NCBI GenBank assembly: GCA_029582155.1 | Contig: CM055908.1 | Coordinates: 23,459,757 to 23,523,756 of the forward strand | Length of the DNA stretch: 64,000 bases | Reading direction: 5' to 3' | From: Panopea generosa | Taxonomy: Eukaryota; Mollusca; Bivalvia; Adapedonta; Hiatellidae | Shown here: piece by piece, positions 1 to 61,110 of the stretch | How the letters are laid out: every line of letters starts with the position of its first letter | How positions within the stretch are numbered: the first letter of the stretch is position 1 | Position numbers and translations under genes: made by a program | The notes under the pieces: generated by a model | What the model was told of the DNA's origin: nothing | Databases searched by the model: none | Seen by the model: only the letters and a program-made list of their open reading frames with translations

Positions 1-394
1 AGTATATATGACAGCAACACAGTTCTGGCATCCCTCAGATGACATAAACAACTGTAGAAGAGATTGCCAATGTAAGATCAGTATATATGACAGCAACAGA
101 GTTCTTGCATCCCTCAGATGACATAAACAACTGAAGTAAAGATTGCCAATGTAAGATTAGTATATATGACAGCAACAGAGTTATGGCATCCCTCAGATGA
201 CATAAACAGCTGAAGAAGAGATTGAAAAAGAAAGAGTAGTATATACAACAGTGACAGAGTTCTGGCATCCCTCAGATGACATAAACAACTGAAGAAGAGA
301 TTGAAAAAGAAAGATTAGTATATATGACAGTGACAGAGTTCTGGCATCCCTCAGATGACATAAATAACTGAAGTAGAGATTGCAAGCTGCAGGC
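1..394 (-). repeat. 79 bp minisatellite carrying TRPM splice acceptors and exon starts
   Basis: Five tandem copies of a 79 bp unit. On the minus strand each contains a pyrimidine-rich tract, a CAG acceptor and the same exon start, read as LFMSSEGCQN. First exon bases would be 367, 288, 209, 130 and 51, exactly 79 apart. The reading follows the previous exon (ending LAASSNDQ) as expected for TRPM, where a segment of the type F-x-S-x-x-G-x-Q comes next. The copy at 51 borders the window edge and is the best candidate for the exon that is really continued. Confidence 0.85.
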
Positions 395-3300
395 ATTCCA
401 GCAATCTTATACCTACCAGATCATTAGATGAGGCAGCCAGCTGCAGACATGTCATATCATTCCAGCAATCTTATACCTACCTGATCATTAGATGAGGCAG
501 CCAGCTGCATGCATGTCATATCATTCAAGCAATCTTATACCTACCAGATCATTAGATGAGGCAGCCGGCTGCAGACATGTCATATCATTCCAGCAATCTT
601 ATATCTACCTGATCATTAGATGACGCAGTCAGCTGCAGACATGTCATATTATTCCAGCAATCTTATACCTACCTGATCATTAGATGAGGCAGCCAGCTGC
701 AGACATGTCATATCATTCCAGCAGGGAGATTTCCGCTCCACAATCATCATGGTCTTATCAGGATCTTTCTGGTTACATTCATTAAGAACATTGGTAGCCA
801 ACTCCTCAAACTCCCTGGAACACATGAGATAAAAACAGTCAGTACAATACAAGGGACTTAGTAGCAGTAATTCCTTCTTCAAGATATTAGGTACAAAAAA
901 TCAGTAAATACAGGTAAATAAGTAAGTAAAACAAAACAGAAAACATGAAGCATATGGTAATTTAATTATTGGCGTCCCAACAGTTGCTACTGCTATAAAG
1001 CTCAGATACTTACTGCTTGTAGGTATGTAACTTGTCATTGATGATGGAATCATGCCTTGGTATATGTCTGGCCATGGCACTGTACAGTCTTGTTGCTGCT
1101 AAAGCACTTGTGATGGGCTCGTCCCCCATCTCCCAGAAAAACTTAGCTATACTTTGTCTGCCAGTAGAAACAAAATATCTCATGTAAGTCAATTTCTTAC
1201 TTAACATAGCATTTAAAAAATAACTCTACCATCAATGTTTAAAATATATGTATATTGGTTGCTTCCAAATGTTATTTCTTTTAACATTGCCTTTTATTCC
1301 AAGGATCACCAAAAAATGTATTGGTTAACTGTTATATATTATTAATACCTTATTTGCAATATTCTTCATAGGTTTGTTTACTATTTAAACTTCATTTGCT
1401 TCATTAAGCACCTAGACTGTTATGTAAGGAACTTATTCGAGTTGTATTTTCCCTATATAAACTTTCAAATTAACTGGAAATCCCATGTATTACAAACACT
1501 TTTACACCATCAGCAAATATAGATAAGTTCTATTTGTCAGCCTGAAAATAAAGGGGACCCTTTTGTTAATTTCTACTGAATTTACCTATTCAAGAGTACA
1601 GCCCAGATGAAGAGATGTTTAAATGGGTTATTGTATTTTGCCGTCTTAATATCGATTGTTTCAACATCAGAGTCTTCCAGATCCAGCTCAGCCAACCCAA
1701 GGTTATCTTTGTCTTCATCATACCTGTATATGAAACAGAAACAATATATTTACATTTGATATATGCTTAAACATTTGCCATATCTGCCTTATTTTGACAA
1801 TTTGTACAAAGCTTACCTTGGGTGAGAAAACAAAAGTAAAATACATGCAGTATGCTTCGAATTCATTTGAAGTGGAAGCTCAAAAGTACAAAAAGTTACA
1901 GCTGTTTGTTCGACAAACATACATGTATACCAAATGCTACTGATATATTTTATGGTGAACAAAAGTACTTACCCATCCATTCATGTGATAAAACCACGAT
2001 ATATTTTATACAAGTATTAACTTAGTGTAATATCACTGCAGACTCATTTCTTGGTGTTGTAATGATGCTTGTTCATAAAAAAATGAACTGATTTCGGACT
2101 TGCCCGAACATGTAAATGCATCAGTTAATTATCGAAAATTGCATTACATGTATTTTGCCATGTTGACATCATAAGATGACGCAAACTATAACATTAATTA
2201 GTGTCTTGTAAAAAGAATTATAGTGTCTTAAGTTATGATTGATTGATTGATTGATTGACTGATTGAATGAATATTTAGCATCATTTTACGCCATCGAGGG
2301 CTAACACACAAACAGTTAACTTAACCACTGTTTCATGTGAATTGGAAGGTTAACCAGTACTCGAGCACACTCCATCTCCACAAGTAAACGATAACTTTCC
2401 CACTTGAATCAGAAGTGAGAGATGAATGATTATGAGACACAATGTCATATATCAGTCATCAAGGAGACTGTTGCTGGGAGGGGATTCATACTGAGGACTC
2501 CTGGATTGATAGCCAGACGCGTTACTGATTGAGCTTATCAGGCCTGGCCTGGAGTGATGAAATAAAAAATAAATAGTAAATGCAAAATGTTTGTACATGT
2601 ACTTTATGTGATTAAACCAAATCTCACATACATGCTCATTTGTAATAAAATCTTATAGCCAATTTATCAAATAAATACAACCATAACTAATCACTCATGT
2701 GAGATCCTCTTTATATGCTAACTAACTTTACTTTCATGTTTTTACAAATATTACTGACAGGCAACAAGCAGATTTCAACATTACCTGTCAAGCAGTCTAC
2801 GAAGCAATAGGCGGACATTTTCTCTGGTTAGTTCCTCTTTCCCCGTCAGTTGAAACAGCATACGATATAAGGGGTCATGCTTGGGAATCTGTCATATACA
2901 TGTAGCAATTATAAATACAAGTTTATGAGAGGCACATGGTTGAATAGTAGAGCACCAAACCCAGTAGAGATTTCTCCCCACAGTTGAAACAGCAGACGAT
3001 ATAAGGGGTCATGCTTGGTAATCTGCCATATACATGTAGCAATTATAAATACAAGTTTATGAGAGGCACATGGTTTAACAGTAGAGCACCAAACCCAGTA
3101 GAGATTTCTCCCCACAGTTGAAACAGCAGATGATATAAGGGGCCATGCTTGGTAATCTGCCATATACATGTAGCAATTATAAATACAAGTTAATGAGAGT
3201 CACATGGTTTAATGGTAGAGCACCATACCCAGTAGAGATTTCTCCCCACAGTTGAAACAGCAGACGATATAAGGGGTCATGCTTGAGAATCTGCCATAAA

Positions 3301-6300
3301 CATGTAGCAATTATAAATGCAAGCTTATGAAAGGCTCATGGTTTAATGGTAGAGCATCAAACCCAGTAGAGATATCTCTCCACAGATGAAATTTGCCCTC
3401 TTTTCTACAGATAATAATGTCTAACATTTCTACTGTACAAAATATCCATATCTTAAGTATTTTTTTTTCCACAGCAGAAATGCATCCACATGTTTAAATG
3501 CACATAACTGGTGGGTTAAAAAGATTATTTTATAAAAGTATTGCAGTGACATCCTTAGATTTCTTTTAAACAAGAGCTGTTGGAGAACAGCAATAACTAG
3601 ATTATTCTACCCTTGTCACAGAACCGTAGTAAGTGTGTGTGTGTGTGTGTGTGGCGGGGGGGGGGGGGGGGGGGGGGGCAGCAATACTTAAAAATATATA
3701 TATAGAAATCAAGGCGGGTTATGGGAGCAGTAATTAAGTTGAAATATGGTATTTCATTTAATTTTAGACAAAATTTAAAAAAGAAATGGAGGTGGAGGGT
3801 CAGAGTATTTCATTTTATTTAAAACAAAATCTTAAAAAAAAAAAATATTTCTAGAAAATAAAAATAGGAGGTACCTATGATTCATTTTGAAAGTTTTTTG
3901 TAACAAATTACACAGGACTCTTTTTTTAACACGAAAATCTTGCTACTTTCACTGAAAAGGGGGCTCAACTGTGTAGCGAGATGTATAGGCGGATGGCGGG
4001 TTTATTTCCTCATCTGGCCCACATGTTGTGTTTGTGTAAAGAATGTCTATCTATTTAGCTATATTTTATTATATTTCAGTAATAAACAATCATGTTACAG
4101 AGAAAGTGGTATGAATTCGAGTAATTAACTTTACGTATTTGAAAATTGTACATTGATATTTTTGAGTAATTGGTAATGATGTTATTAAGAGACAGGTAAG
4201 TACTTGAGTAATTTACTTTCATGTATTTGAGTATTTTACTTAGAAGTATTTAAAAGTATTTTATTTCATATATTTGAGAATTTTACTTTGATGTGTACGA
4301 GAAATTGATCTGACGCAAGAACGACTATAGCCCCGCCCTCTGGCAATGTGCCAATGTTTGCCCAAGTAAATACAATGTAGTGTTTACTTAGTCATAGTTT
4401 GTCTTGCAAGGAAAAGGTTAGTAAGCAAACAATATCGACTGATGAATGGATTATCACAATGTATGATTGGCAGTCAGCAGGTCAAGTGACAATAGTGTCA
4501 TAGAGAAACAGGTATGTATTTGAGTATTTAGAATTGAATTTATTTTGAGTAGCTAAAGAATTGCTTAAATATTTGAGAAATTTACTTTGATGCGTTTCAG
4601 AAATTTGCTTTGATATATTTTATAAATTTACTTTCATGCATTTGATTAACTCTATTTGACGTATTGCATTCATCACTGTAAGAAAATTGTACAGTCTAAC
4701 CTTAGAAATAGGCCACCTCTATTAAGAAGTCACCTAGTTGTAAGCAACCATATTTTCTATTTCTATTTTCTATGCTTTCAGAGTAAATTAACCTGTATTT
4801 GGCAACAATCTGTATTAAAAGGTCAATTTTGCTTAAGACAGATTTGACTGTATATGATTATTTTATGAACTGATGGTTTTATTCTTACATTGAGGTAGAG
4901 GTTTTCCAATCTCTCACGAGTCAGATATTCCTTAATCATGACTCCTTGCTGCAGTATGAGGTCCAGAAACTTCACCTTTTCAGTCTCAATGGCCTCGGTG
5001 ATAAAGTCATCTAGGCTTCCTGTACATACAAGTGATTACATATAAATACTTGGAGATCACAGATGATCATGGTTACGTTAGATTATCATAAACATGTAAA
5101 CATGTGGGACAAGGGTATTATAAGTCAAGGGCTAGAATTCTGATATTCATACAGCTTTGTATTAATAAGTTCTTCACTTGAAATCTATTTTCTGAACTGT
5201 ATTTTAGGTTTTCGTTCAATTAATTGAATTAATTCAATGAATACATTGTATATTATGTTAACTGTAAAACTCAAAGATGAATTTAGACAGTCAGATAGTG
5301 ATAAAAATGCTCTCAAGGAAAATAGGTAAATTATTTTGGGAGGTAAATGAATAAGCTATGAGGACAAATATCCTGTATGTTTAAACATTCACCCTGGACT
5401 CCTATTAACAACAAATTCATCTATTATTCCCAGGCAATTACATCATGTACTAACAATATGATAGAAATATTAGTCGCAATGCTGAAATCTATATATTGCT
5501 GACAGCCTTAAGCCTCATCTGTTTACATTTTTATTAAAAAAACTCTTCATTAAAAACAAAGTAGGCCACCAGACCTGCTTAACATACCACTATTTTCCAG
5601 TGATAAATTTCAACATTAATAAACGTACTTGGTCTCCATAGGACATCCTCTCTGAATATTTCCTCCTGTGCGATATCCACTCTGTCCCACATGAGGGCAA
5701 GTTTGAGCTGACTCAGACGTTGGACCTCGTCTCCTCCAGACTGGGCCTTCAGCAGCACGGACAAAATGGCAAGGTCAAGGTCTTCATGCTTGTTCATGTG
5801 GAACACTATCATCTGTAATACATAAAACATGTAGGTGTACATGTGAAACACTATCATCTGTAATACATGAAACATGTTGGTGTACATGTAGACAGCATCT
5901 GCAGATTGCAGTTTCATCAGTGTAACGGGAATCTCGTACCCTGCAAATAAATATTGATGAGGTATAAACCTGCAAAGTAAATGAGCCCTAAATCTTTAAG
6001 AATAATGTGTATAATTTATATACATGTACATTATATACTTTATTTTTTTTATTTGTATCAATGCAACCGGCCCATACACAATACAATAATATATGTACAT
6101 GTATATTACTAAACACCATGTCTCTTTCAAAATAACCTAGCAGTAAAAAAATGTGCATCCCCACATGTAAGTTTGTATGGAGCAATAATTGGTACTCCTC
6201 CTGTAATATCTCTGTTTCTCAATTTTCCTGTATTATACAGTCAAACCTGTTTTTATACTAATTTTTTTTAGCTTGCGATGAAAGCTCAGAGCTTATATGA

Positions 6301-21764: not shown

Positions 21765-22985
21765 AGACAGTGTACATTGGTACAACGGTATTTCTTATAA
21801 TAGTTCATTGTGACAGTGTACTTAGATGTAACGATATTTCTTATAATAGTTCATTGTGTGCCTGTGATAGAGACAGTGTACATCGATGTAACAATATTTC
21901 TTATAATGGTTCACCGTGTGCCTGTGATAGAGAAAGTGTACATCGGTGTAACAATATTTCTTATAATAGTTAATTGTGTACCTGTGATAGAGACAGTGTT
22001 CATCGATGTAACAATATTTCTTATAATAGTTCATTGCGGCCTTTGATAAAGACAGTGTACATCGGTGTAACAATATTTCTTATAATAGTTCACCGTGTGC
22101 CTGTCATAGAGAAAGTGTATATCGGTTAAACAATATTTCTTATAATAGTTAATTGTGTACCTGTGATAGAGACAGTGTACATTGATGTAACAATATTTCT
22201 TATAATAGCTCATTGCGGCCTCTGATAAAGACAGTGTACATCGGTGTAACAATATTTCTTATAATAGTTCACCGTGTGCCTGTGATAGAGAAAGTGTACA
22301 TCGGTTAAACAATATTTCTTATAATAGTTAATTGTGTGCCTGTGATAGAGACAGTGTACATCGATGTAACAATATTTCTTATAATTGTTCATTGTGTGCC
22401 TATGATAAAGACAGAGTATAACGGTGTAACAATATTTCTTATAAAAGTTCACTGTGTGCCTGTGAAAGAGACAGTGTACATCGTTGTAACAATATTTCTT
22501 ATAATAGTTCATTGTGTGCCTGTGATAGAGACAGTGTACATCGGTGTAATAATATTTCTTATAATATTTCATTGTGTGCCTGTGAAAGAGACAGTGTACA
22601 TCGTTGTAACAATATTTCTTATAATAGTTCATTGTGTGCCTGTGATAGAGACAGTGTACATCGGTGTAACAATATTTCTTATAATAGTTCATGTTGTGCC
22701 TGTGATAGAGACAGTGTATATCGGTGTAACAATATTTCTTATAATAGTTCATTTTGTGCCTGTGATAGAGACAGTGTACATCGGTGTAACAATATTTCTT
22801 ATAATAGTTCATTGTGTGCCTGTGATAGAGACAGTGTACATCGGTGTAACAATATTTCTTATAATATTCCATTGTGTGCCTGTGATAGAGACAGTGTACA
22901 TCGGTGTAACAGTACTTCTCATATTATATTACTTCTTATATAAGTTCATTGTGCCTGTGATAGAGACATTGTACCTCGGGATGAC
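21765..22985. repeat. 60 bp minisatellite, about 20 copies
   Basis: Tandem units containing AACAATATTTCTTATAATAG and GCCTGTGATAGAGACAGTGT. The left half is more diverged and has occasional one-base length changes; the right half (22450-22900) is very regular at 60 bp. Because 60 is a multiple of three and the unit lacks stops in several frames, long open frames appear on both strands; I regard these as artefacts. The array ends about 450 bp before the start of the next gene. Confidence 0.92.
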
Positions 22986-46600: not shown

Positions 46601-49600
46601 TCAGAAGCAATAGCACATGTAAAGCATACTTGTAAACACGTATATGGATTTACAATAACAGGAAATATGAACTAACTTCCGTTAGTTTATCTTTGAACGA
46701 AGTAGCCTCGTACATGTGTTTATAGCTTTACGACATTAGGATGCACAGTCAGTTGTGACGCAATTATACTGTTATGATACTATTATAAATAAGTTTACTA
46801 AAATGTAAAATGAAGTAGGTATAAACCGAGTACGCTATTGTGAAACTTCGTCATTTTATTTATAATTAGACTCGTCCAATACAGGGGACACATTAATATT
46901 GAATCTATTGTATTGGATAATGTATGTAACAGATGGATGTGCTGTCATCCCATATAAGGTAGGTTAAAACCAAAAATAGAATGACGTAGTTTCAAAATAG
47001 CGTATTGGGTTTATATATACCTTACTTCTAAATAACTGCCTATCTTTACCGTTAAACATCTTTAAATTATCAGCATGAAAATCAACAGTACTGTCGTCTC
47101 TGTCGTCATTACGTGTTATATAAGCCAACATGCTAAGGATCTTCTCCGATATGGCATTGCTGTGTTTGGTTTACTTGACATTAGACGTATTATAAACCCA
47201 ATACGCTTTTATGAAACTACGTCATTCTATTTTTAGATGGAACCTACCGTATAAGGGATGACAGCACATTTATATATAACATAAATTATGCAATACAATA
47301 GATTCAATATTAATATGTTACCTGTATTGGACGAATCTAACTATCATAACTATCAACAAAATGACGTAGTTTCACAATAGCGTATTTGGTTTATAGTATA
47401 TATCCCAAATACCATAAAAATATAGTTATAATACATGTATGTGTATATACCAGACAGTAACGTGTAACTCCAATGTATGTATGTATTGTCAACTGATATG
47501 GCAAGGTTGGTGTGTGCACAAAGTGTTATTACAGTATATATTGTAAACTAATATGGAGAGGTTGGTGTGTGCACGTAGTGTTATAACACTATATATAGTC
47601 AACTGATATGACGATGTTGGTGTGTGCACGGAGTTTTATTACAGTATCTATTGTCAACTAATATGGCGAGGTTGGTTGTGCACGTAGTGTTATAACACTA
47701 TATATAGTCAACTGATATGACGATGTTGGTGTGTGCACGGAGTTTTATTACAGTATCTATTGTCAACTAATATGGCGAGGTTGGTTGTGCACGATGTGTT
47801 ATTACAGTATATATTGTCAACTGTTATGGCATGGTTGGTGTGTGCACGGAGTGTTATCACAGTATATATTGTCAACTGATATCGCGAATGTTGGTGTGTG
47901 TGCAGGGAGTGTTATTACAGGATATATTGTCAACTGATATAGCGACTGTTGGTGTGTGCAGGGAGTGTTATTACAGGATATATTGTCAACTGATATAGTG
48001 AGTATTGGTGTGTACACGGAGTTTTATTACAGTATATATTGCCAACTGATTTAGCGAGTGTTGGTGTGTGCACGGAGTGTTATAACAGTATACATTGTCA
48101 ACTGATATAGCGACTGTTGGTGTGTGCAGGAGGTGTTATTACAGTATATGTTGTCAACTGATATAGCGATTGTTGGTGTGTGCACGGAGTGTTATTACAG
48201 TATATATTGTCAACTAATATAGCGATTGTTGGTGTGTGCACGGAGTGTTATTAAAGTATTTATTGTCAACTGATTTAGCGATTGTTGGTGTGTGCACGGA
48301 GTGTTATTACATTATATATTGTCAACTGATATAGCGATGTTGGTGTATGCAGGAAGTGTTATTACAGTATATATTGTTAACTGACAAGGCTAGTATTGGT
48401 GTGTGCAGGGAGTGTTATTACAGTTTATATATTGTCAACTGATATGACTTGGTTGGTGCATACACGGAGTGTTATAACAGTACACATTGTCAACTGATAT
48501 AGCGAGTGTTGGTGTGTGCAGGGAGTGTTATTACAGAACATATTGTCAACTGATATGGCCTGGATGGTGTGTGCACGGAATGTTATAACAGTATACATTG
48601 TCAACTGATATAGCGAGTGTTGGTGTATGAACGGAGTGTTATTACAGTATATATTGTCAACTGATATAGCGAGTGTTGGTGTGTGCAGAGAGTGTTATTA
48701 CAGTATACATTGCCAACTGATATAGCGAGGTTGGTGTGTGCAGAAAGTGGTATTACAGTATATATTGTCAACTGACATGGCGAGTGTTGGTGTGTGCATG
48801 GAGTGTTATTACATTATATATTGTCAACTCACATGGCGAGTGTTGGTGTGTGCAGGGAGTGTTATTATAGTATATTTTGTCAACTGATATAGCCAGTGTT
48901 TGGTGTGTGCGGGGAGTGTTATTACAGTATACATTGTCAACTGATATGGAAAGGTTGGTGTGTGCACAAAATTTTATTACAGTATATATTGTCAACTGAT
49001 ATAGCGAGTGTTGGTGTGTGCAGGGAGTGTTATTACAGTATATATTGTCAACTGGCATAACGGTGTTTGTGTGTGCACGGAGTGTTATTACAGTATATAT
49101 TGTCAACTGACATGGCGAGTGTTGGTCTGTGCAGGGAGTGTTATTACAGTATATATTGTCAACTGACATGGCAAGGTTGGTGTTTGCAAGAAGTTTTATT
49201 ACAGTATATATTGTCAACTGATATGGCTTGGTTGGTGTGTGCAGGGAGTGTTATTACAGCATATATCGTCAACTGATATTGTGAGGTTGGTGTGTGCAGG
49301 GAATGCTATTACAGTATATATTGTCAACTGATATGACGAGGTTGGTGTGTGAACGGAGTGTTATTATAGTATATATTGTCAACTGAGGTGTGTGCGGGGA
49401 GTGTTATAACAGTATATATTGTCAACTGATATGGTAAGGTTGGTGTGTGCATGTAATGTTATTACATAATATATTATCAACTGATATAGCGAGTGTTGGT
49501 GTTTGCAGAGAGTGTTATTACAGTATATATTGTCAACTGACATGGCGAGGTTGGTGTGTGCAGGAAGTATTATTACAGTATATATTGTCAACAGATATGG

Positions 49601-50157
49601 TGAGGTTGGTGTGTGCAGGGAGTGTTATTACAGTTTATATTGACAACTGATATGGTGATGTTGGTGTGTGCACGGTTATAACAGTATATATTGCAAACTG
49701 TTATGGCGAAGTTGGTGTGTACACGGAGTGTTATTACAGTTTATATTGTTAACTGACATGGCGAGGTTTGTGTGTGCACGGAGTGTTATTACAGTATATA
49801 TTGTCGACTGACATGGCAAGGTTGTTGTGTGCACGAAGTGTTATTACTGTAAGTGGAAGTCTTAAGTAACTACCAGATACTACCACTGTAACAACAATAG
49901 TAACCGAACACCTCACTCGTTGCACAAAATGTATAGCTGTATAACTTATAAACAACCACCTATTTTCTATGATAACAGTTTATACCAGCCAATATTTAAC
50001 ATAAGTGTAATGTTTGCTACATGGATAACTCAGCATGTCTTACCGTCTCGGTATTTTGTAGAAATTCTCCATGTATATACCTCGTCAACAGGCACGTCTT
50101 TCCGGAGTTTGCACTCCCCAGCAGTACTACCTTGCATGTACAATCGAATTGCGACAT
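31667..50157 (-). CDS. RAB24: Rab24-like small GTPase, complete, 210 residues, 7 exons
   Basis: Exons on the minus strand: 50157-50044, 46132-46064, 44786-44640, 43408-43309, 35547-35497, 33997-33929, 31749-31667. All borders are AG/GT and phases join into 633 nt including the stop. Motifs: P-loop GSANSGKT (14-21); switch II WDTAGSERY (61-69), with Ser where most Rabs have Gln; TKKD (119-122) for NKxD; ETSSKTG (151-157). The Ser at the catalytic Gln position, the Thr in TKKD, YYRNAKAAIICFDLTD, and a C-terminal CC followed by a few residues (CCARPV) are all Rab24 traits; vertebrate Rab24 ends CCHH and has about the same length. Rab24 is a low-GTPase-activity Rab linked to autophagic vesicle clearance. 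Possible AATAAA at 31626-31621. The paralogue most likely to be confused is Rab20. Confidence 0.92.
32127..32570. mobile_element. Decayed DNA transposon or MITE related to 57656-58058
   Basis: Left end ACGGTGGCGAACCACGCG resembles the terminal repeat at 57656, and internal stretches (GTGCAACGG, CCACTTGATGG, TTTTTTATGAAGTAT) occur in the same order. The right terminus is lost. An added 12 bp unit GTTGTACCGAGT is repeated about three times at 32365-32398. Confidence 0.6.
34126..34235. repeat. 28 bp tandem repeat, 4 copies
   Basis: Units of the form CTAGTGTCTAGATTATGATT plus ATAAGTGC. They lie in the Rab24-like intron just before exon 6. Confidence 0.85.
34240..35490. other. Rab24-like intron 5, no further feature
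   Basis: AT-rich intron. A segment at 34745-34800 (AAAAAGGTACCAAGTGCCTT and following) is the reverse complement of 7830-7890, so it is part of a dispersed repeat. Nothing else seen. Confidence 0.45.
35550..42340. other. Rab24-like intron 4, largest intron, mostly unannotated
   Basis: Very AT-rich, with no supported exon on either strand. A G-rich stretch at 37170-37200 is followed by a 27-28 bp segment identical to one at 20079-20107. Poly(A)/(T) runs are frequent. Confidence 0.45.
42341..42515. repeat. 77 bp tandem repeat, 2.3 copies
   Basis: GTTTCTAGTTAGTAAATGTG occurs at 42342 and 42419, and its start again near 42496, each 77 bp apart. Confidence 0.8.
43651..43800. repeat. 30 bp tandem repeat, 5 copies
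   Basis: GTAATACGACATTAACTGAC plus TGTGTATAGA, repeated at 43661, 43691, 43721, 43751 and 43781 with almost no change. It lies in the Rab24-like intron upstream of exon 4. Confidence 0.93.
46820..47015 (+). mobile_element. MITE with long terminal inverted repeats (copy A)
   Basis: The ends TATAAACCGAGTACGCTATT and its imperfect reverse complement AATAGCGTATTGGGTTTATA form arms of about 40 bp. Copy B at 47191 is the same element in the opposite orientation. Confidence 0.85.
47191..47394 (-). mobile_element. MITE with long terminal inverted repeats (copy B, inverted)
   Basis: Starts TATAAACCCAATACGCTTTT and ends ATAGCGTATTTGGTTTATA. The interior (GGGATGACAGCACAT, CAATACAATAGATTCAATAT) is the reverse complement of the interior of copy A. 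Confidence 0.85.
47475..49860. repeat. 55-57 bp minisatellite, about 42 copies
   Basis: Tandem units containing TTGTCAACTGATATGGCGAG, GTTGGTGTGTGCACGGAGTG and TTATTACAGTATATA. It occupies about 2.4 kb of intron 1 of the Rab24-like gene. Copies differ by many point changes and a few small indels, so the array is not very recent. Confidence 0.93.
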
Positions 50158-58058: not shown

Positions 58059-60450
58059 AAATAACGATATCGGACTGGTTTTAATAATTGTGAGGTCTTG
58101 AATGCTACATCGACCGAGGTAACTCACTTCTATAAGTAGAGCACGTTCATAGATATGGTATTGCATTAATATTTTTAAATATGGACCGGATTACGCCACA
58201 GTCCGCACAATATTATTATAAGGCCTTATGTACGAAAATCTAAAAATATGTAAATGAAGTAGAGTATTTACTAGAAAACTTATCGCCTACTGGCTTGTTC
58301 TTTTGTAAAAAATGATCACCTGATCATTAACAATGGCATTTAGTAGATAAATACAAATAGAAATGTTGGAAATTCAATGAATAGATATTTCATCTGATAT
58401 CTTTAGAAAGTTTCACACTGGATACGTTGAAGGTTCAACAACAATAACAACATGCAAAAAAAAAGTCGTTTACCTCACGCACTCAACCACGTGCATTATG
58501 TTTCGCAACTAGTGTGAATATTATTCATTTAAAATTGATGTATGTTAGCAAGAAAGGTGAGCGTGAACCGGTGTAACGTTCAGCAGTATACTCACGTACA
58601 CTACATTATTACAGCTGCCCACTACTGTGTGCCTATAAAGTTTTGATCTATTATTATAATGGTTGACGTTTTTGTACAGTCAACTTCCCAATCCGGTTCG
58701 CAATGAATGATAAATAGTATTAACATTATCATACTGTTTTGTTGTAACTTTCGCACATCATTAATAAAACAAAAATAAAAACTATCATCGTAATTACGAC
58801 AGCTGTACAGCTGTAACAACATTGTAGCATTATTATAAGTTACTGAATGTGTATGGTGAAGTATTAGTTGGGACGAGGTGTTTTGGCTTTACTCCTTTAA
58901 ATCAAAGATATATTGTTTAAGACTGATACAATCAATGTGTGCATTACTACTGCAACGGTAAAAATGAACTGGAAAGATTAACTGCATTTCATTTTATATT
59001 GAAAACAATTGCAGATGGGCGGAACTAAAAGTACCAGTTTTCATTTCATTGGGTGCACGATCTTGTTTTGCTGGTGCGGCGTCATGTTGTCATGAGTGTC
59101 ACATGACGTTTGCATATTACATTGAATACGTTCAGTTTATAAAATAGTAAAATAGCATAACAGTTTTATCTAAAGCAGGGGGAGGGGGGGATAAAGTAAA
59201 TATAAGTATTAAAGGCACATTTTTTAGTTTTCATCGGTTTTTTGGGCTTCAAGTACATTAAACCAGCCCAATGTTTTTCATCACATGGTGTTTTTTATCT
59301 TTAATCTAATGAAAATTCAACGTCTAATACAGGTATTACCTAAGCTATTTCCACTTTTACGAACGTCGTTTTCTTTTATAAGATGGCGAAAAGTAGTTCC
59401 TACTTCCGTTCGGGTTGTTAAAGTTCCCGTTTAAAATCCATTTGTGCGGTATTATTATTATTATTTCACATTAATTTCAGTCTCTATGTCAAATTCCCAA
59501 TACCCGATCAGTCAATAATTTTTATTACTGCTCAGTAATATTGACCGGCCAAATTATAACACGTTCGAGACTTTATAAAAATTTATATATTTAAATAGCT
59601 TTTAATATCCTGTAAGGCACCCTGTACGATATTTAACAAATAAATCGTAGAGCGGTGTACCATACGAGTCTGGTACACTATGTTATACTATGTTAATTAT
59701 ACGTTTTTATGATACGCTTCCCGTTTTGATCACAGATAATTGCGTTCCAGTGACACAGGGCAAGTGTGTTTTTTATGGCACAGTACGGTATAGCCTTGAT
59801 CATGTTGGACGCTTGCTTTTCTTAAAGATGTGTTTGTCTGTGCTTATTAAATCTTACTTATGTTCAGAACAAATAGACCATTTCCGTGTGCACATATTAG
59901 CGGATGCTGTGGAACGTTCAACTGCAAAAAGTGTCAAGACATTTGTCTTTTAGAAAAGTAAGCGTCTTACATGGTCCAGACGAATAAATATAGGTAAACT
60001 TTGCATGCTAACCTTTAAACGTTTGATTCGTATGTACTGGTGCTACATAATCACGTTGTTTAATTTATCACAGAGAATATACCATATAGCTGTTGGAAAT
60101 AAATCGCCTTTCAATATGTACTCTTCCATATATTCCTGCCAAACTACCAATTTAACCAATATAAGCTGCGTTGAGTAGTGTTAAACAGCAGGTACATTTT
60201 GCTGCCTGGTTCCCTAAATTTAATTTATAATGCGCTAATATAAAATTGCGCCAGTTGCCAGTTATCTAAATTTGATAATGTTAGCAAATGTTTTATCGGT
60301 GGGGGTTAAAAAGGTACCTAAATATTAAATATTCTTTTATTTTTGTCATTGTTGAAATAAAGTTAGAAGAAATCATCATATGTTAACTTACCTTCGCTGA
60401 AATAGGGTCGTACCCAGAAGTAATAGCTGTTTTTTGTACACACAATATCT
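58059..60450. other. No gene seen
   Basis: Intergenic. A G-rich tract (AGGGGGAGGGGGGG type) lies near 59176. An 87-residue open frame at 59690-59953 has no recognisable features and is not called. Confidence 0.4.
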
Positions 60451-61110
60451 TAAATACCATGAGAGTATACCAGCAATATCCTAACAGTTACATCAAAATA
60501 CTCAACAAGACAAGCCATTATGTTAAATAACATGTGAGTATACCAGCACTATCTTAACAGTTACATAAAAATACTCAAAAAGACAAGCCATTATGTTAAA
60601 TAACATGAGAGTTTACCAGCAATATCCTAACAGTTACATAAAAATACTCAACAAGACAAGCCATTATGTTAAATAACATGTGAGTATACCAGCAATTTCC
60701 TAACAGTTACATAAAAATACTCAACAAGACAAGCCATTACGTTAAATAACTTGAGAGTTTACAAGCAACATCCTAACAGTTACATCAAAATACTCAACAA
60801 GACAAGCCACTAGCTTAAATAACACGTGAGTATACCAGCAATATCCTAACAGTTACATAAAAAGACTCAACAAGACAACCCATTATGATAAATATCATGA
60901 GAGTTTACCAGCAATATCCTAACAGTTACATAAAACTACTTAACAAGACAAGCCATTATCTTAAATAACACGTGAGTATACCAGCAATATCCTAACAGTT
61001 ACATAAAAATACTCAACAAGACAAGACATTATGTTAAATAACATGAGAGTTTACCAGCAATATCCTTATAGTTACATCAAAATACTCAACAAGATAAGCC
61101 ATTCCTTTTT
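60450..61110. repeat. 73 bp minisatellite with alternating (146 bp) unit types, about 9 copies
   Basis: Units with ACCAGCAATATCCTAACAGT and CTCAACAAGACAAGCCATTA. Unit starts at 60461, 60534, 60607 and 60680 are exactly 73 apart. The variants GAGAGTTTACC and GTGAGTATACC alternate along the array, so the larger repeat is 146 bp. It lies downstream of the glycosyltransferase gene. Confidence 0.92.

Follow-up and report, generated by a model that had tools for sequence, protein, structure and literature searches.

The TRPM locus and its gene model

The window, i.e., the whole stretch of DNA analyzed here, comprises 64,000 nucleotides of the Panopea generosa genome (G000:C15:23459757-23523756; genome size 1.47 Gb in 39 contigs). 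Its left part is filled by a TRPM channel gene, TRPM-A, located on the minus strand. The TRPM identity proposed in the initial annotation was borne out by the Pfam TRPM2 domain (PF25508, E = 1.6e-44) and by matches to TRPM3 chains and structures (E = 4e-36); the gene belongs to the TRPM channel genes by its domain, by colinearity with known TRPMs, and by its match to mollusc TRPM-like proteins. A protein search with TRPM-A among the 8000 candidates sharing most words with it returned seven proteins, all from molluscs, the best one from Mya arenaria. A second search with exons e9-e12 returned one protein already found before and nothing further, and a tRNA scan of the whole window revealed no tRNA.

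The gene model consists of 16 exons and is free of stop codons both in TRPM-A and in its paralogue B. Upon reading the minus strand, the end of exon e10 is ..CWNDMTCLQLAASSNDQ, which then runs into a tandem array. The following exon e11 comprises 78 nt (LFMSSEGCQNSITTTWKHGVLSGWAM) and its 3' end is an ordinary donor.

Two facing arrays fill the intron between exons e10 and e11

The intron between e10 and e11 contains an array of donors followed by an array of acceptors (Table 1), for which Tandem Repeats Finder reported 92% and 90% matches, respectively. The GT of the donor copies starts at positions 672, 608, 544, 480, and 416 of the minus strand, 64 bp apart, in agreement with the initial annotation, which had described a donor array facing an acceptor array. 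On the same strand, the first exon base of the acceptor copies is found at positions 367, 288, 209, 130, and 51, each after an AG and always at a spacing of 79 bp. These five acceptors had been listed correctly with respect to position and AG, but the array is cut by the window. Extension of the contig to the left, which had been suggested as a check, identified a sixth acceptor at window coordinate -28, 29 bases outside the window; this copy opens the true exon e11, which encodes LFMSSEGCQN as the acceptor reading required. TRPM-A has 5 donors and 6 acceptors in total, giving 30 possible pairs; the equal copy number noted at first was an artefact of the window edge.

Table 1. Features of the TRPM-A locus, in window coordinates.
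Feature	Position	Strand	Remarks
TRPM exon e10	673..814	-	142 nt; ends ..LQLAASSNDQ at donor 1; open gene model over 16 exons, colinear with paralogue C
Intron e10/e11, part inside the window	1..672	-	700 nt in total; end beyond the window
64-bp donor array, mirage of exon e10 end	394..723	-	TRF score 590; junctions
Array junction, last donor to first acceptor	368..416	-	49 nt; identical in paralogue B; yUnAy branch-point match not found
79-bp acceptor array, mirage of exon e11 start	1..385	-	TRF score 595; AG/exon junctions; continues left of the window (L005)
134-bp acceptor mirage, exon e7 of TRPM-A	2847..3391	-	4 copies; 20 in paralogue B (G000:C15:23360570-23363276)
45-bp acceptor mirage, exon e5 of TRPM-A	5791..5889	-	2 copies in register

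The 64-bp unit is composed of 50 nt of exon end and 14 nt of intron start (GTAGGTATAAGATT, which varies in one unit each of A and B), the 79-bp unit of 47 nt of intron end and 32 nt of exon start. Both units span an exon-intron boundary, and the splice signal is present in every copy of A and B (GT in 13/13, AG in 12/12); the arrays are thus mirages, i.e., exon-edge minisatellites. Altogether, repeats account for 690 of the 700 intron bases in TRPM-A (98.6%), so that the description of the intron as consisting almost wholly of repeated splice signals holds. The first acceptor, at 367, is exceptional: only its 3' part matches the 79-bp unit, its upstream half being donor-array sequence without a yUnAy match. 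Every array donor precedes every array acceptor. From this order it follows that a cassette exon cannot be formed from array sites and that an inner splice still leaves the outer pair.

Paralogue B shares the layout

Paralogue B, located at a distance of 102 kb, shows the identical layout with 8 donors and 6 acceptors, i.e., 48 pairs; its e10/e11 intron comprises 892 nt, 882 of which lie within the arrays. The 49 nt linking the last donor with the first acceptor are the same in A and B, whereas three other introns compared are only 91-94% identical. The facing arrays are therefore probably older than the A/B duplication. Over the 16 exons, the coding sequences of A and B differ with dS = 0.061 and dN = 0.036. 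Copy numbers have diverged at the donors (5 in A vs. 8 in B), at e7 (4 vs. 20), and at e18 (3 vs. 34), and are equal for the acceptors discussed here (6 vs. 6).

The outermost copies are nearly unchanged between the paralogues, with 0/64 differences for donor 1 and 1/79 for the last acceptor. The decoys, in contrast, differ on average at 6.9/64 positions for donors (28 pairs) and 9.2/79 for acceptors (16 pairs, without the first acceptors). Conservation of the outermost copies partly reflects coding constraint.

Only the outermost splice sites give an open message

An open frame from e10 to e11 results from 1 of the 30 pairs in A and 1 of the 48 in B, in both cases from the outermost donor and the outermost acceptor. 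The initial annotation had envisaged up to 25 ways of splicing; on paper there are 30 in A, but in 29 of them a stop codon enters the frame. The product of joining donor 1 to the last acceptor aligns colinearly and gap-free with paralogue C along 74 residues; in C, e10 and e11 form one exon. The interpretation of the repeats as an intron is thereby confirmed. We infer from these sequence comparisons that the outermost pair is the one used. Furthermore, 16 mirages of A, B, and C were examined, and in each of them the edge of the gene model coincides with the outermost copy, an outcome to be expected from the geometry of duplication.

The training set of a splice-site weight matrix comprised 32 donors and 28 acceptors from A and C. 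In A, the last acceptor scored 5.4 bits, acceptors 2 and 3 scored 7.8 and 7.1, acceptors 4 and 5 slightly above the last one, and acceptor 1 below it; donor 4 equaled donor 1, and donors 2, 3, and 5 scored lower. As the matrix does not single out the used sites, their choice seems to be based on position. A branch point was also considered as the basis of acceptor choice and rejected: yUnAy is absent at acceptors 1 and 3 of A and acceptor 1 of B, but it is likewise missing from 8 of the 31 acceptors modelled as true in A and C.

Conservation of the decoys

The decoy dinucleotides (AG or GT) were intact at 102 of 108 sites over the 16 mirages, as compared to about 95 expected from a mean mismatch of 6% per site. 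By our own arithmetic this excess amounts to about two standard deviations, the copies not being independent. Within the 64-bp unit, the 14-nt donor part was changed at 3/182 positions and the exon part at 45/650 (Fisher P = 0.006, again for copies that are not independent). The 79-bp unit showed the opposite pattern, its exon part being more conserved (8/320 vs. 37/470, first acceptors of A and B excluded). Slow decay of the decoys and the conserved donor part could be explained if inner sites are sometimes used; this sign, weak and at the level of sequence, counts against the explanation favored below.

Arrays at other exon edges

Mirages are also found elsewhere in these genes. Upstream of exon e18 of paralogue B (L009/L010, G000:C15:23340163-23343020), 33 extra copies of the acceptor region with an 80-bp unit were detected, 4 of them without AG; in TRPM-A, the copies total 3. 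In paralogue C, exon e14 (L023 about 4420-5286, G000:C15:51332420-51333286) carries a 75-bp donor mirage of 11 copies. Its period is divisible by three and the frame stays open for about 230 codons; hence use of its downstream donors could lead to in-frame insertion of 25-residue repeats. Beside a more distant gene, TRPM-D (L018 1-465), a 79-bp array of about 6 copies has a unit with TTTTGTAG/GATGCTATTGCTGCTGCC, which looks like another acceptor mirage. A 30-bp array of about 28 copies with GAG/GTAAGC (L005 1916-2813) was dismissed as a donor mirage: it is located inside the intron before e15, where there is no exon edge. Further large minisatellites in the window occupy positions 21812-22923 (60 bp x 18.6), 47479-49851 (55 bp x 43), and 60446-61103 (73 bp x 9).

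Of the span modelled for each gene, tandem arrays with a period of at least 20 occupy 18.1% in A, 33.0% in B, and 15.9% in C. Modelled exon edges located at least 12 bp inside an array numbered 7/36 in A, 7/34 in B (14/70 for both), and 1/29 in C; edges with any array overlap numbered 7, 7, and 2, the corresponding averages over 5000 circular shifts being 6.6, 11.2, and 4.6. Exon edges of A, B, and C thus revealed no enrichment of arrays by circular shifts. These counts refer to placeable edges and leave out the first exons and e17 as well as a number of edges in B and C; in paralogue C, the e15 acceptor edge was placed 2 nt off, and the e14 donor mirage lies outside the 29 edges and inside the 16 mirages. 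Mirages with only two copies in register are those of e5, e15, and e19 of A, e19 of B, and e18 of C.

Across the genome, arrays crossed 5 of 80 edges of myosin and kinase exons. In a first batch of 20 myosin exons, 4/40 edges were crossed and 10.8% of the flanking bases were in arrays; in a second batch (9 myosin and 11 kinase exons), the corresponding values were 1/40 and 3.9%. This sample was hand-picked from 81 myosin and 136 kinase matches by taking short stop-free open frames; its 40 exons, 29 of myosin and 11 of kinase genes, do not include the 30 kinase loci L024-L053. Edges were those of the HMM matches, splice sites not being set individually, so that mirages located farther out were missed. 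The crossing arrays were found at myosin exons L056, L058, L065, and L066 and at kinase exon L084, with units of 41, 44, 60, 34, and 111 bp.

Introns with both ends in arrays were observed once in A (0.47 expected from the array frequency among 17 introns) and once in B (0.40 among 15 introns), and the facing pairs of A and B very likely represent one shared event. As arrays at exon edges do not exceed the number expected from array density, no linked process is required to explain a facing pair.

Origin of the intron

The phylogenetic tree groups A and B with P0006 of Mya arenaria and a Dreissena protein (99/98), and unites C with P0001, the other Mya gene (93/95, not starred). Gastropods and Tegillarca are located across the midpoint root from the A/B and C groups. 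Another intron, at LLDR/YDEDKD, is present in A and B and absent from C; conversely, an intron near LLKGK/GADEAQ is present in C and absent from A and B.

The intron might have been made by the arrays themselves, i.e., by tandem duplication of an exon segment with AG/GT according to the model of Rogers, Gao and Lynch, followed by further amplification. This was favored at first because of three paralogues without the intron, in which this place is read as part of one exon: C, with 71% identity over the region, and D and E, two distant TRPM genes of the P. generosa genome, with 33% and 31%. The high repeat content of the A intron and the innermost donor-acceptor core of 49 nt, the same in A and B, also point in this direction. 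The idea was set back by gene models and by tests of the core. In the predicted models of Mya arenaria (P0006) and the sea slug Elysia (P0007), the exon breaks off exactly after ..DQ, other exons being skipped in P0006 too; this exon edge therefore seems older than the bivalve paralogues. Moreover, the core tail matched the exon end no better than shuffles did (10225/20000), the donor piece gave no clear match to the would-be following exon (4016/20000), and no exon stands out as a source for the intronic half of the 79-bp unit. The shuffle tests thus did not trace the intron ends to an exon, although old divergence could mask such an origin. From the sequences compared, an old intron which was lost in C seems to fit better than a gain by the arrays, and the latter is considered unlikely.

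Both P0006 and P0007 have no counterpart of e11-e13, and e10 is joined to e14-like sequence. In A, these three exons comprise 78, 138, and 132 nt, each divisible by three; their absence from the two models reflects a genuine isoform or else an error common to both predictions.

Interpretation and alternative explanations

The best explanation, which we regard as probable, is that two mirage minisatellites arose by neutral tandem duplications across exon edges and are tolerated through the choice of the outermost sites by exon definition. A tandem duplication across a donor would leave the original donor at the exon and push the extra copies into the intron; upon duplication across an acceptor, the original would likewise stay beside its exon. 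As duplication would leave the originals at the exons, the copies would be tolerated if the spliceosome joins the outermost donor and acceptor. Exon definition may select these sites, since the exons delimited by them are the shortest (142 and 78 nt). Inner copies would then be ignored, or removed by nested splicing, or their products would be destroyed by nonsense-mediated decay.

Alternatively, the stacked decoys could be a selected device that lowers or tunes output, inner-site transcripts carrying a stop and being degraded. Such a role would agree with the intact dinucleotides of all 13 donors and 12 acceptors in A and B and of most decoys across the 16 mirages, and with decoys scoring at least as high as the used sites (donor 4 and acceptors 2 and 3 in A; donors 2-4 and acceptors 2-4 in B). 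However, decoys diverge between the paralogues much faster than the used copies, and some are weak, e.g., donor 7 of B with 4.6 bits, below all 32 training donors. Furthermore, copy numbers of A and B are unequal at other mirages and at the donors, even if equal at the acceptors, exon edges of unrelated genes are crossed at about the general array rate, and the excess of intact sites is small for copies that are not independent. We consider this device very unlikely. Quite unlikely, too, is a self-correcting "onion" intron, in which inner pairs would be spliced first, shell by shell, the decoys being kept because they speed removal or set timing. Each inner splice would leave the outermost pair available, so that many splicing routes would converge on one correct mRNA. 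If this were true, onion introns would be a class in the P. generosa genome that directly tests exon against intron definition.

A linked process had been raised as one possible reading of the 5 and 5 copies counted as long as only the window was considered; pairing of the arrays, for example, would keep donor and acceptor copy numbers equal. In fact, A has 5 and 6 copies and B has 8 and 6, and facing pairs, which very likely represent one shared event, hardly exceed expectation; we regard such a process as extremely improbable. An assembly artefact or a dead gene is scarcely credible either. Repeats are generally hard to assemble and a dN/dS of 0.59 between A and B indicates only moderate constraint, but the array units carry individual substitutions, both the layout and the 49-nt core recur at two separate loci, and the 16 modelled exons are open in both genes.

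The intron is a natural experiment in site choice: nearly identical donors and acceptors are lined up at intervals of 64 and 79 bp, and some of them match or exceed the used ones in strength. Intron definition predicts use of the innermost sites, which are 49 nt apart, and exon definition predicts use of the outermost ones. Splice tolerance of repeats becomes measurable genome-wide, and, as a warning, genes with such arrays may be miscalled by gene predictors.

Comparison with known systems

Mirages were named in lancelet Adh3 and are also described for globins, TnC, and PGBD5; donor and acceptor sides are both represented, according to passages of these papers (PMC3087553, PMC3902484). There, splicing is called undisturbed for Adh3, globins, and TnC and is thought to be so for PGBD5, with little cDNA support (PMC3087553, PMC3902484); globin RT-PCR and Adh3 data are reported to suggest that mirages leave splicing undisturbed (PMC3087553). 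The arrays of P. generosa resemble the lancelet mirages of Adh3, BflGb6, BflGb9, TnC, and PGBD5, as far as these are characterized in those passages, in their boundary-spanning minisatellite units and in the many copies with AG or GT. Copy number is variable in the lancelet mirages; in P. generosa, it differs between paralogues A and B at several mirages. The arrays of P. generosa differ in the mollusc host, in the donor and acceptor mirages that face each other in one intron, make up 98.6% of it, and are common to two paralogues, and in the number of acceptor copies, which is as many as 34 at exon e18 of paralogue B. The facing pair is not described in the lancelet mirage passages.

A second related system is intron gain by tandem duplication, with potato RdRp as a case (PMC4974935), which likewise involves duplicated segments with splice signals and an intron of duplicated sequence. 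Unlike in this system, the intron of P. generosa seems older than its arrays, its ends are not clearly traceable to an exon, and it leaves the coding product unaltered.

The initial annotation knew of no described case of paired donor and acceptor satellites. This stands for the facing pair, as far as the literature was searched: no report of such a pair or of mollusc mirages was found in the sources covered, most subscription journals being outside their scope. Exon-edge minisatellites as such were known from the lancelet mirages (PMC3087553, PMC3902484). Within the literature searched, the kind of structure is therefore a known one, and the facing pair that fills an intron and its occurrence in a mollusc appear to be new, extending mirages from lancelets to a mollusc.
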